Positions 5,144 through 9,413 of a stretch of DNA of 64,000 nt are shown in pieces. The notes beneath the pieces are model-generated. The model did not search any database, was not told the DNA's origin, and saw nothing but the letters and a program-made list of their open reading frames with translations. Positions within the stretch are counted from its first letter, which is position 1, and every line of letters begins with the position of its first letter. The stretch lies in NCBI RefSeq assembly GCF_000597725.1, contig NZ_JFBL01000012.1:1-64000 (forward strand), given 5' to 3'. A program made the position numbers and the translations under genes. The DNA comes from Sulfurospirillum arcachonense DSM 9755. GTDB lineage: Bacteria; Campylobacterota; Campylobacteria; Campylobacterales; Sulfurospirillaceae.

Positions 5144-5791
5144 ATGAAAAAAGCTACTAAAAAAGAAATTTTAGAAATAAAAGAAATTTTAATTTCAAAT
5201 TATAGTGATGCCGTAACAGAATTAAATTATAATAATTTATATGAACTTCTCATATCTGTAATGCTCTCAGCACAGTGTACTGATAAAAGAGTAAATATAA
5301 TTACGCCTAAATTATTTGATAAATATCCTAACGTAGAAAAATTAAGTCAAGCTAATTTGGATGATGTAAAAGAGTTAATTAAATCTTGTTCATTTTTCAA
5401 TAATAAAGCAGTAAATCTTATAAAAATGGCAACAGCTGTGATGGAAAATTTTGAAGGTGAAATTCCTCTTGATGAAAAAAGTCTTGTTACACTTGCAGGT
5501 GTTGGTCAAAAAACTGCTCATGTTGTTATGATTGAGTATGCTGGTGCAAACTTGATGGCCGTTGATACACATGTATTTAGAGTTGCACATAGACTAGGAA
5601 TTAGTTCTGCAAAAACTGCTATTTTAACGGAAGTAGAACTTACAAAAAAATTTAAAACAGATTTACATATACTGCATCAAGGAATGGTTCTTTTTGGTAG
5701 ATATGTATGTAAGGCAATAAAACCAGAATGCGAAGAAAAATGTTTTTTAAAAGAGTATTGTAAAAGCAAAGGAAGTTTTAAAGTTGGATAA
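5144..5791 (+). CDS. nth: Endonuclease III (DNA glycosylase/AP lyase)
   Basis: The enzyme removes oxidised pyrimidines and cleaves abasic sites in base excision repair. The 215-residue protein has the helix-hairpin-helix motif LAGVGQKTAHVV with the catalytic lysine, then AVDTHVFRVAHRLG with the catalytic aspartate. Four C-terminal cysteines for the 4Fe-4S cluster are present (CKAIKPECEEKCFLKEYC), but the spacing is C-X6-C-X3-C-X5-C rather than the usual X6-X2-X5. The stop codon lies inside the following kinase gene, so the two are probably cotranscribed. Confidence 0.95.
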   Translation: MKKATKKEILEIKEILISNYSDAVTELNYNNLYELLISVMLSAQCTDKRVNIITPKLFDKYPNVEKLSQANLDDVKELIKSCSFFNNKAVNLIKMATAVMENFEGEIPLDEKSLVTLAGVGQKTAHVVMIEYAGANLMAVDTHVFRVAHRLGISSAKTAILTEVELTKKFKTDLHILHQGMVLFGRYVCKAIKPECEEKCFLKEYCKSKGSFKVG

Positions 5792-6749
5792 TAAAAATGA
5801 AAAAACACTTTTTTGGCAAATAACTTCTTTTATACTATTCGCTATGTTTTTAGTTTTTGTAGGAGCAAATTATATTTTTAACAACTGCCATAACAGTATT
5901 TATTGTTTAGAATATAGAAATAATATACTCTATCTCATAACTTTTTGTGGATTTATGTCTATTGTTCTTTTTGTTAAGTATAAATTAAAGACCTTATCTT
6001 TTATGAAAAAAGAATTAGAACAACAATTGGAAAAACAAAAAAGAGAGTTTGAAAACCAATTTAATATAAAAAAAGACTCACTATTAAATGAAATAAAAGA
6101 TAGAGAAGAAGCTGAAGAAAAACTTGAAAATTCCTTGAACGAAAAAGTTATTCTTTTAAAAGAAATTCATCATAGAGTCAAAAACAATCTTGCTATTATT
6201 ACAGGTCTCATAAGAATGCAATGTAGACAGATTAAAGATGAAAATATAAAAGATATATTTAAAAGTCTTCAAAACCGTATAAAAACAATGGAACTTATAC
6301 ACACAAACCTTTATAGCTCAACTGACTTTACTCAAGTTAATTTCAATTCTTATATTCATTCTTTAGTTCAAAACCTAAAAAAATCATTTGACACTGAAAA
6401 TAATGTCACTTTCCAAGTTTCTTGTACTGACATAAGTCTTACTATAGAACAAGCAATTGCCTGTGGGCAAATAGTAAATGAACTTATTACAAACTCTTTT
6501 AAACATGCCTATACAGATAATAAAAAAGGTACTATTACTATAGAACTTATACAAAAAGAAAATCTCTTTACACTTATTGTTGCTGATGATGGCAAAGGTG
6601 TAAAACATTTATCTCAAAAAACACAACAACCTTCTTCTTTAGGGATGACTCTTGTGTATGAACTTGTGAAATATCAATTAAAAGGAAAATTAGAAATTAT
6701 AAATTTAAATGGAATTAAATATCAAATAGATTTCAAAAAAACTCAATAA
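5784..6749 (+). CDS. Membrane sensor histidine kinase, HisKA_2 family
   Basis: Two hydrophobic segments (about 10-30 and 46-63) flank a short outer loop containing two cysteines (NCHNSIYC). A charged coiled coil follows (about 70-120). The HisKA_2 phosphorylation motif KEIHHRVKNNLAII supplies the phospho-accepting His. The ATPase domain has NELITNSFKHAY (N box) and VADDGKGV (G1). The 321-residue protein has no large sensor domain, so the signal may be sensed in the membrane or by the loop cysteines. The start is TTG at 5784, overlapping the nth stop by 8 bases with GGAAG upstream; no better in-frame start precedes the first membrane segment. The convergent response regulator is the likely partner. 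Confidence 0.9.
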   Translation: MDNKNEKTLFWQITSFILFAMFLVFVGANYIFNNCHNSIYCLEYRNNILYLITFCGFMSIVLFVKYKLKTLSFMKKELEQQLEKQKREFENQFNIKKDSLLNEIKDREEAEEKLENSLNEKVILLKEIHHRVKNNLAIITGLIRMQCRQIKDENIKDIFKSLQNRIKTMELIHTNLYSSTDFTQVNFNSYIHSLVQNLKKSFDTENNVTFQVSCTDISLTIEQAIACGQIVNELITNSFKHAYTDNKKGTITIELIQKENLFTLIVADDGKGVKHLSQKTQQPSSLGMTLVYELVKYQLKGKLEIINLNGIKYQIDFKKTQ

Positions 6750-6887
6750 TGGCACAATTTTAACTAAAATGGCACAAAATGCATACTTTTTTCTTGTATA
6801 ATTTTCACTAGGAAGAGGAACTTTACACTTATCCACAATCCATAATCCGCTGCCTCTTCCGAACTTCACTTACAAATATCGTTGTAA
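6748..6887 (+). promoter_or_regulatory. Intergenic region with direct repeats, promoter-like site and stem-loop
   Basis: Between the convergent kinase and regulator genes lie two exact 10-bp direct repeats, AATGGCACAA at 6748-6757 and 6768-6777, spaced 20 bp. TATAAT follows at 6797-6802. An inverted repeat, GGAAGAGG (6811-6818) and CCTCTTCC (6853-6860), begins where transcription would start. Its loop holds a perfect DnaA-box sequence, TTATCCACA (6829-6837). A second small inverted repeat, TTACAA/TTGTAA, lies at 6870-6887. No ORF is present. The layout would suit a regulator-activated small RNA, but that is inference. Confidence 0.35.
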
Positions 6888-7574
6888 TTACTTAGCTATT
6901 ATCCTATACCCTTCAGAAGAAACATTTTCTATCAAATCATCATTGAGTTTATCTCTAACTCTTCGTACTAAGCTTCTAAGCGTTGAAGTAGGAACATCAT
7001 CATTATCCCATAACTCTTTTATGATTTTATTATAATGAACAGCTTTATTTCTATTTGATACCATAAAAAAGAAAAACTCTCCCTCTTTTTTAGTTAAATT
7101 CACCTTTTCATTTAAATGATATAAATTTTTTTCTTTTAATGCATATTCATATTCACTGTTTAATTGTATTACTTCACCATTGTTACTGTTTTCTTCTTCT
7201 TCAAATCTTGATAAAGCTATAAGAATTGCACTATTTAACTGCTTTTCATCAACTGGTTTAACTACATAACCATACGGTTTGGTTGATTGAGCTTTTTTTA
7301 AAGTTTCATTATCGGTAAAAGAAGTTAAATATACTACTGGAATATTGAACTTTGTTTGTATTAAATCAACTATCGTTGTTCCATCAGCACTGTCATTCAA
7401 TTTAATATCCATCAAAACTAAATTTGGTAAATATTTTTCTATATAAAACATTGCTTCATCTGTCGTAGTAGCTACCTCATCAACAACATAACCAAAATCC
7501 ACAAGACAATGCTGTATATCCATAGCGATAATAGCTTCATCTTCTACTATAATTATATGTTTATTTTCACTCAT
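6888..7574 (-). CDS. Response regulator with CheY-like receiver and winged-helix output
   Basis: The receiver (about 5-120) has the acidic pair in IIIVEDEAIIAMDI, the phospho-acceptor Asp in LVLMDIKLNDSADG, a Ser/Thr switch in VVYLTSF and the Lys in YGYVVKPVD. This receiver type usually pairs with HisKA_2 kinases. The C-terminal domain (about 160-228, including LTKKEGEFFFFM and TLRSLVRRVRDKLND) looks like an OmpR/PhoB-type DNA-binding domain. I chose ATG 7574, which overlaps the upstream stop as ATGA. An alternative in-frame ATG at 7607 would add 11 unconserved-looking residues. The neighbouring convergent kinase is the likely partner. Confidence 0.88.
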   Translation of the reverse strand: MSENKHIIIVEDEAIIAMDIQHCLVDFGYVVDEVATTTDEAMFYIEKYLPNLVLMDIKLNDSADGTTIVDLIQTKFNIPVVYLTSFTDNETLKKAQSTKPYGYVVKPVDEKQLNSAILIALSRFEEEENSNNGEVIQLNSEYEYALKEKNLYHLNEKVNLTKKEGEFFFFMVSNRNKAVHYNKIIKELWDNDDVPTSTLRSLVRRVRDKLNDDLIENVSSEGYRIIAK

Positions 7575-8134
7575 CCTGTTACTGTATCTATCCATTTTAT
7601 AGAACATCCTTGGGCATTAAATTGTTTCGTAGGAGCCTCTTGTTTGCCAAAAAGAGAAATTACTGCTTCTCTTAAATCTTCATCTTTAACACTTTTAGGA
7701 TCATGCCAGTTATCATCTAAACGACCATGATAATATAATGCACCTTCACCATCAAATAAAAATATATCTGGAGTACAAACTGCACCGATTGATTTTGATA
7801 CTTTTTGATCAAAATCTACTAAATAAGGAAAGCTCAAACCAAATTCGTTGATTTTATCAATCATATGTGCAGGACTATCTTCAGGATAATTTGGATGGAT
7901 ATTTGGATTGATTGCGACTGTATTGATATCAAGCTTTTTAGCAAATGATGCTACTTTTTCTAATCTTTCCCAAATTGCATTCGAATAAGGACAATGATTA
8001 CACATTACAGCGATTATCATTCCATCTTTACCATAAGATTCTTTTGAATCAAACTTTTCGCCAAAAGAGTCTTCTAACACAAAATATTCTAATTTTGTGC
8101 CGATTTTTATATCGGCTGATTTCATTAGTGCCAT
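7571..8134 (-). CDS. Thioredoxin-fold redoxin family protein
   Basis: The 187-residue cytoplasmic protein has the peroxiredoxin-like thioredoxin fold. The start of the active-site helix reads MCNHCPYSNAIWERL, with a CxxC pair near residues 45-48. GAVCTPDIFLFD supplies the cis-proline loop. No signal peptide is present. Members are annotated as thioredoxin-family or AhpC/TSA-related proteins, and the substrate is not known. The start lies 2 bases from the dipeptidase stop, and the stop overlaps the response regulator start, so it sits in a likely pepD-redoxin-regulator operon. Confidence 0.82.
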   Translation of the reverse strand: MALMKSADIKIGTKLEYFVLEDSFGEKFDSKESYGKDGMIIAVMCNHCPYSNAIWERLEKVASFAKKLDINTVAINPNIHPNYPEDSPAHMIDKINEFGLSFPYLVDFDQKVSKSIGAVCTPDIFLFDGEGALYYHGRLDDNWHDPKSVKDEDLREAVISLFGKQEAPTKQFNAQGCSIKWIDTVTG

Positions 8135-8135
8135 A

Positions 8136-9413
8136 CTATAATCCCTCCACTATATTTTCTACAACTTTACTAATTCGCTCCACCGAAGATAAATCGCACT
8201 CTTCTCTTAATGAGTGTGGATATTTTATAGTTGGACCAATTGCTACTGCTTCTATTTTCTTAGATTGTCTTTGCATTAGTATACCACACTCTAAACCAGC
8301 ATGAATAGCACAAAAATTTGCATCATCATATACTTTTGACATCTCTTTTTTGACAATATTTGCAAACGTACCAACATCAGGAACCCAAGGCTCATGTCCA
8401 TCTTTTTGAGATGTTTCGCAACCTATAAGTTGAAAAAATGACTCTGTTTCATATGCTAAATTTACTAAATCACTGTTTTTCATTGCCCTAGCAGAACAAT
8501 CTATCTTTAAAACACCCTGCGTTATTCTAAGTACACCTAAGTTGATACTCGTTGAAGGTATCATATAGCTTTTATCAAAACTTCTTACTCCTTGAGCAAA
8601 AGAGTGTAAAGCTTTTATAATATTAACACCATCTTTAATATACTCTTTTTTATGCTCAATTTTCTTTACATGTAAAGCACTATTGTAAGCTTTAAACTCT
8701 TTACATGTAGCAATTACCGCCTTAGCATTTTTAGCAATAGAGTTTCTTAACTCTCCACCTTCAATATGCAAAAGTTTACAATCATGTTTTATAAGTTCTG
8801 CTGCTAATACTTTTGTTGCACAATCTATTCTCTTATCTATGTCCACACCTGAGTGTCCACCAGATAAATCAAAAATACCCACTTCATAAATAAACTCTTC
8901 ATCTTTTAGAGGAAGATACTCTAAGTTGCGTGTAGAGATAACATCAATACCACCTGCACAACCAATATAAATCTCTTTTTCCTCTTCACCATCAAGGTTT
9001 AACAAACAAGATGAACTAAACTGTAAATCTAAATTAGAAGCTCCTATAAGTCCAACTTCTTCATCATTGGTAAAAAGACACTCCAAATCAGTGAATTTTT
9101 CCATACATGTAAACATAATAGACATACCCATACCATTATCTGCACCAAGTGTAGAGTTTTTTGCTTTTAGTATTCCATTGTCTTCTACTAACTCTATATT
9201 TGCAACATCACCTAAACAAACCATATCATAATGAGCTTGTAAACATACTTTTGGATTGCCTTTTTTACATAAAATATTGCCACTCTTATCAACACTGACC
9301 TCATAGCCTAACTCTTTTGAAATCTCTATAATTTTTTCTTGCATAAAATCTGTTTTAAAGCTACATCTTGGAGTTTGTGTTATAGTTTTAAAATACTCTA
9401 AAACTCGATTCAT
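8136..9413 (-). CDS. pepD: Aminoacyl-histidine dipeptidase (M20C family)
   Basis: The enzyme is a cytoplasmic metallopeptidase cleaving Xaa-His and other dipeptides. Metal-site motifs are in order: QAHYDMVCLG, NSTLGADNGMGMS, TNDEEVGLIGA (catalytic Glu and metal ligand), LLNLDGEE, and IHAGLECGIL plus YPHSLREEC near the C-terminus. The protein has 425 residues, shorter than the roughly 485 of E. coli PepD, with compact inserts rather than a truncation. In C. jejuni a peptidase of this kind also lies close to cmoB. It probably supplies histidine and other amino acids from peptides. Confidence 0.92.
   Translation of the reverse strand: MNRVLEYFKTITQTPRCSFKTDFMQEKIIEISKELGYEVSVDKSGNILCKKGNPKVCLQAHYDMVCLGDVANIELVEDNGILKAKNSTLGADNGMGMSIMFTCMEKFTDLECLFTNDEEVGLIGASNLDLQFSSSCLLNLDGEEEKEIYIGCAGGIDVISTRNLEYLPLKDEEFIYEVGIFDLSGGHSGVDIDKRIDCATKVLAAELIKHDCKLLHIEGGELRNSIAKNAKAVIATCKEFKAYNSALHVKKIEHKKEYIKDGVNIIKALHSFAQGVRSFDKSYMIPSTSINLGVLRITQGVLKIDCSARAMKNSDLVNLAYETESFFQLIGCETSQKDGHEPWVPDVGTFANIVKKEMSKVYDDANFCAIHAGLECGILMQRQSKKIEAVAIGPTIKYPHSLREECDLSSVERISKVVENIVEGL

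Follow-up and report, generated by a model that had tools for sequence, protein, structure and literature searches.

Does the gap between a histidine kinase gene and the response regulator gene converging on it encode a small RNA, and, if so, is this RNA controlled by its two neighbours? The original prediction proposed that an OmpR/PhoB-like regulator binds direct repeats in this gap, that a stem-loop RNA is transcribed from there on the plus strand, and that the transcript runs antisense into the 3' end of the regulator gene as a possible feedback. We analysed the locus in a window of 64,000 nt (64 kb) from Sulfurospirillum arcachonense DSM 9755 and compared it with the corresponding loci of relatives.

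Anatomy of the locus

The locus comprises nth (5144-5791) and a HisKA_2-type histidine kinase gene (5784-6749) on the plus strand, followed on the minus strand by an OmpR-type response regulator gene with Response_reg and Trans_reg_C domains (6888-7607), a redoxin gene (7571-8134) and a peptidase gene (8136-9413). The labels nth and peptidase are tentative and are based in part on a domain match. The kinase gene lies 5' of the stem-loop element and the regulator gene converges towards it, with a gap of 138 bp between their stops (6749 and 6888). No open reading frame of at least 80 aa was found within this gap, in agreement with the original prediction. On the minus strand, the redoxin gene starts 1 bp past the end of the peptidase gene, and the regulator gene begins before the redoxin gene has ended, the two sharing 37 bp (7571-7607). 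Because the three genes form such a tightly packed set, control of redoxin translation could extend to the regulator.

Two exact copies of the 10-bp direct repeat AATGGCACAA are present on the plus strand at 6748-6757 and 6768-6777, 20 bp apart from start to start, and this sequence is absent from both strands elsewhere in the 64 kb. As had been claimed, these boxes overlap the -35 region of a TATAAT at 6797-6802, the predicted -10 element. The TGGCAC of the two copies starts 47 bp and 27 bp 5' of TATAAT, respectively, and the 47-bp distance is also observed in the related genome G003. A TTG directly precedes TATAAT, and the resulting 9-mer TTGTATAAT is not rare, with four occurrences in the window against a chance mean of 2.8. 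From the position of the -10 element, transcription would start at 6809, as initially suggested, or at the A at 6810. We also considered a sigma-54 promoter, whose consensus has GG and GC 10 bases apart. This candidate was rejected on spacing: the GG of TGGCAC is followed by a GC at a distance of 8 bases (window) or 9 bases (genome G016), and in G003 no GC is found near the GG.

Immediately downstream, the arms GGAAGAGG (6811-6818) and CCTCTTCC (6853-6860) form the 8-bp inverted repeat that had been described, enclosing exactly 34 bases (6819-6852) that are predicted by folding to be unpaired. This is the sole such pair in the window, even with up to three mismatches allowed. An equally good inverted repeat was obtained in 6 of 100 shuffles, and the stem is therefore only mildly surprising from a single sequence. 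The plus strand of the window folds with a z-score of -2.8. The loop contains three consecutive heptads that all end in ATCC, namely CTTATCC (6828-6834), ACAATCC (6835-6841) and ATAATCC (6842-6848), whose complements are GGATAAG, GGATTGT and GGATTAT.

Conservation of the element among relatives

We searched for the element across the 44 genomes of the family. A 30-nt loop pattern with at most three mismatches was found in three genomes, with no match for the reversed control, and a covariance model identified the element in four (E of 3e-8 or better). The fourth copy, in G016, was found with an E of 2.5e-13 by a covariance model built from two sequences. The element-bearing genomes, i.e., that of the window (G000), G003, G016 and G042, represent three of the five genera of the family. 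All four copies are located just 3' of nth, with the kinase gene intervening in the window only, and the order of GCAC box, TATAAT, stem and loop is kept at near-equal spacing. The core of the loop is identical at 23 of 23 bases in the four genomes (6829-6851, which together with 6828 includes the three heptads), and the longest strings in common measure 23-33 bases. For the same genomes, nth presents 40-53% identity at fourfold-degenerate sites and 67-78% identity at the protein level. The conservation of order, spacing and loop bases in four genomes indicates that the element is beyond chance, with the reservation that this comparison relies on single sequences from four genomes, of which at least three are drafts. 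The comparison with relatives that the original prediction had proposed thus found both repeats and stem to be conserved.

The predicted promoter shows a similar pattern of conservation. A box ending in GCAC starts exactly 27 bp 5' of TATAAT in G000, G001, G003, G016 and G042, and TATAAT precedes the element in all four genomes that carry it and is also present in G001, which lacks the element. A spacing of 21 free bases between box and TATAAT is observed in the window and at the loci checked (L040, L041, L169 and L005). Relative to this box, the second one is shifted by 20 bp upstream in G000 and G003 and by 11 bp downstream in G016 and G042, such that box spacing varies by genus (20 bp in one, 11 bp in two others). 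Without mismatches, the arrangement AATGGCACA-N11-AATGGCACA was found among the six genomes of the genus at this locus only, in the genome of the window and in G003.

The conserved stem consists of nine model pairs (eight in the window), with 34 of 36 cells paired (94.4%). Double changes are observed at the two outermost pairs, both in G042, where another pair is broken and one is turned into G-U. Sliding the register of the stem by 1-3 columns yielded no double change and at most 73% pairing. The observed pairing and covariation scores were matched by 34 of 500 shuffles, and this result, together with the availability of only four sequences and the origin of the covariation from G042 alone, makes covariation a support of the stem rather than a proof. 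The three relatives present folding z-scores of -2.6 to -3.6. Folding leaves the loop free of pairs in the window, G003 and G016, and pairs part of it in G042. The element therefore combines a conserved structure, the nine-pair stem, with a conserved and mostly unpaired seed, the 23 invariant loop bases. In G042 (L041, 1500-1545), the other strand of the 3' arm of the stem encodes the last codons of the regulator; a single stretch of DNA would then serve both as RNA stem and as regulator codons.

The element is narrowly distributed. Across the phylum, the loop pattern was found in 3 of 397 genomes, as was the covariance model R2 (G016 was outside this draw). Applied to another 30 loci of nth or the regulator, R2 returned just three matches, with an E of 0.4. 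Marginal matches of the covariance model occurred at six places (E of 0.028-0.24) and do not keep the core. Genome G005 is uninformative because its contig breaks off at the regulator gene's 3' end. A mobile or phage element was rejected: no exact 22-mer or 19-mer was found in viral contigs, no plasmid matched, phage matches were weak and partial (E of 0.1 or worse), and the locus is always the same. A protein-coding function was likewise rejected, since the 23-base core is without substitution and no ATG is seen at the predicted 5' end of the RNA. Judging from the conserved sequences, it is likely that the plus strand itself carries a small RNA gene, which would constitute an unrecorded and narrowly distributed candidate of a known kind of small RNA.

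Relation to the adjacent regulator

The comparison gives good support to a putative, regulated plus-strand RNA with a stem-loop, but not to its control by the two-component pair. In G003, whose regulator orthologue is 60% identical (search within the genus), the entire unit is located on the 3' flank of the regulator gene and the kinase gene is absent from the locus. In G016, the element keeps two GCAC boxes and is followed by the redoxin gene; the locus has neither a regulator nor a kinase gene. Conversely, at locus L080 (992-4206), a kinase and a regulator of the same kind are separated by an aminotransferase-like gene and no element is seen there. Co-occurrence of the element and the regulator gene thus fails in both directions: the G016 locus has the element without the regulator gene, and L080 has the regulator gene with no element at the locus. 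In the sequences compared, the element is independent of the regulator gene at the locus, and control by the adjacent OmpR/PhoB-like regulator is unsupported since G016 keeps RNA and boxes without its gene at the locus. A family search at an E of 1e-36 detected no regulator elsewhere in G016; a distant copy may nevertheless exist, as the same threshold also missed the contig-truncated copy of G042.

These results bear on the hypothesis that binding of the OmpR-type regulator to the repeats turns on an RNA that feeds back by running antisense into the regulator's own gene. In G000, G003 and G042, the element touches the regulator gene at its 3' end or lies close to it, and the absence of any terminator-like site in 6700-7650 leaves room for an antisense run. 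In addition, a contig of G001 (L005/L226, 1-160) starts with the box and TATAAT, directly followed by regulator 3' sequence without the element, and the regulator frame has internal stops. Regulator and element look jointly decayed in this genome, although an assembly fault at the contig ends may account for the pattern. The occurrence of element and boxes without the regulator in G016, and of regulator and kinase without the element at L080, both argue against feedback. Moreover, antisense overlap would not account for the invariant loop, and it is not a general function of the element since the downstream gene in G016 encodes the redoxin. We therefore consider regulator feedback improbable.

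Candidate function of the loop

The invariance of the loop suggests that it is the working part of the RNA. The short stem and open, invariant loop are probably used to find and control mRNAs. A promoter regulated through the GCAC boxes and TATAAT would start the RNA at about 6809-6810, and within its first 51 bases or so, a stem of 8-9 bp would keep the 34-nt pyrimidine-rich loop open to act in trans by base pairing. The three tandem NNNAUCC heptads would pair with Shine-Dalgarno regions of the form GGAUNNN and block translation, without Hfq as far as is known for the phylum, and the neighbouring redoxin mRNA would be the first candidate target. We regard base pairing as having about an even chance of being the mode of action. 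The overall reading from these alignments, in which a plus-strand small RNA pairs in trans through its loop heptads with Shine-Dalgarno regions, is plausible but falls a little short of that.

We searched for targets at several levels. The loop complements resemble Shine-Dalgarno regions followed by AT-rich bases. Long targets (18 bases, at most three mismatches) were as numerous in the four genomes as with the reversed control (42 in each case, counting the four elements themselves). In stretches of three genomes, the genes whose start region has at least seven complementary bases numbered 19 of 125, 7 of 85 and 9 of 83, relative to shuffled-loop means of 8.6 (sd 4.8), 6.3 and 5.4; this excess is weak and clear in one genome at most. 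For 67 start regions of the window, duplex energies were no better than those of shuffled loops.

The redoxin gene is a weak lead. Its Shine-Dalgarno region contains GGATTAT (8138-8144, minus strand), complementary to the third heptad of the loop, and a 7-nt complement to one loop heptad is found at the same site in G000, G003 and G016. The heptad differs in each genome (GGATTAT, GGATTGT and GGATAAA), and GGATTAT is also present at the redoxin gene of G005. Out of 44 reciprocal orthologues, 37 are present in all three genomes and redoxin is the only one of these with seven matched bases in all three. A result of this type was obtained at least once in 3.9% of column shuffles (p = 0.039), the lead being post hoc. 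We treat redoxin as a lead only. A more specific proposal is that the RNA is a minimal, Hfq-free multi-target riboregulator, with one stem presenting three slightly different anti-Shine-Dalgarno heptads. This proposal is unlikely as it stands; if true, each heptad could catch a different class of GGAUNNN ribosome-binding site, and redoxin could change heptads in the course of evolution while the loop remained nearly frozen, as the different heptads of the three genomes suggest.

Other functions of the same sequence must be weighed against base pairing. The invariant loop of a plus-strand small RNA might instead be a protein-binding site, acting as a decoy or sponge through three evenly spaced AUCC motifs. 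The regular heptad spacing, the invariance of the spacers between the ATCC motifs and the failure to find a strong mRNA target are all consistent with this possibility. However, the GGAU complement fits ribosome-binding sites and we know of no RNA-binding protein of Campylobacterota that matches such an AUCC motif, which makes a protein site rather unlikely. It is also conceivable that the minus strand is the one at work, as a 3' UTR hairpin of the peptidase-redoxin-regulator mRNA whose loop (GGATTAT, GGATTGT, GGATAAG) offers three GGA to CsrA. The minus strand folds well (z-score of -2.7), and in all four genomes no more than about 35 nt separate its hairpin from the stop of the last gene, with an overlap in G042. 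Yet it is the plus strand that preserves TATAAT and the GCAC box, always the same distance apart, and a 7-nt spacing of GGA is tight for CsrA, such that we find this hypothesis decidedly improbable.

Finally, the element might function as DNA instead of RNA, as a DnaA box or as a site of recombination or maintenance. It is single-copy and its loop contains TTATCCACA, a perfect DnaA box by the E. coli standard (PMC5043019). However, the boxes described for Epsilonproteobacteria, including Sulfurimonas denitrificans, require T at the fifth position (core TTCAC; PMC5043019). TTATCCACA has C at this position and was rejected as a DnaA box of Campylobacterota. It also occurs three times in the window, a count reached in 6 of 100 shuffles, and absence from 40 of 44 family genomes would be unexpected for a genome-maintenance site. 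A DNA site is thus a highly implausible reading.

Comparison with known RNAs

No match was found in the window against Rfam 15 at gathering scores. Relaxing the threshold to an E of 10 added snoRNA matches alone (minus strand, 6862-6957), all far below gathering scores. A limited search of the literature, mostly at the level of abstracts, returned no description of the element RNA. Apart from 6S RNA, the non-coding RNAs of Epsilonproteobacteria have been reported to be common only to strains or close species (PMC3847290), and the species of the phylum covered in these reports lack Hfq (PMC3847290, PMC8322730). A loop frozen over three genera would therefore represent an unusually old regulatory RNA for Epsilonproteobacteria, and a size of about 51 nt would suit a simple test case of Hfq-free base pairing.

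Several characterized small RNAs resemble the candidate in part. RepG (HPnc5490) of Helicobacter pylori is likewise a short small RNA, lying between hp1043, which encodes an orphan response regulator, and a second gene, and its C/U-rich loop pairs with a G-rich mRNA leader in a member of the phylum without Hfq (PMC8295292). In RepG, the C/U-rich loop belongs to the terminator and acts on a homopolymeric G repeat (PMC8295292), whereas the element presents a single stem at its 5' end, a 34-nt loop and three AUCC heptads, with no Rho-independent terminator of the RepG type seen in 6700-7650. No Rfam match links the two. CncR1, also from H. pylori, is controlled by the OmpR-type orphan regulator HsrA and provides a precedent within the phylum (PMC8322730), but the occurrence of the element in G016 casts doubt on such control by the neighbouring regulator. 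In Xanthomonas, sX13 acts independently of Hfq through several unpaired C-rich motifs that pair with G-rich motifs near translation starts, but it is 115 nt long and has three stem-loops with CCCC-type motifs (PMC3771888), in contrast to the one stem and one long loop observed here. RepG, CncR1 and sX13 are the nearest analogues of the element in the way they work, and we assign the element to none of them.
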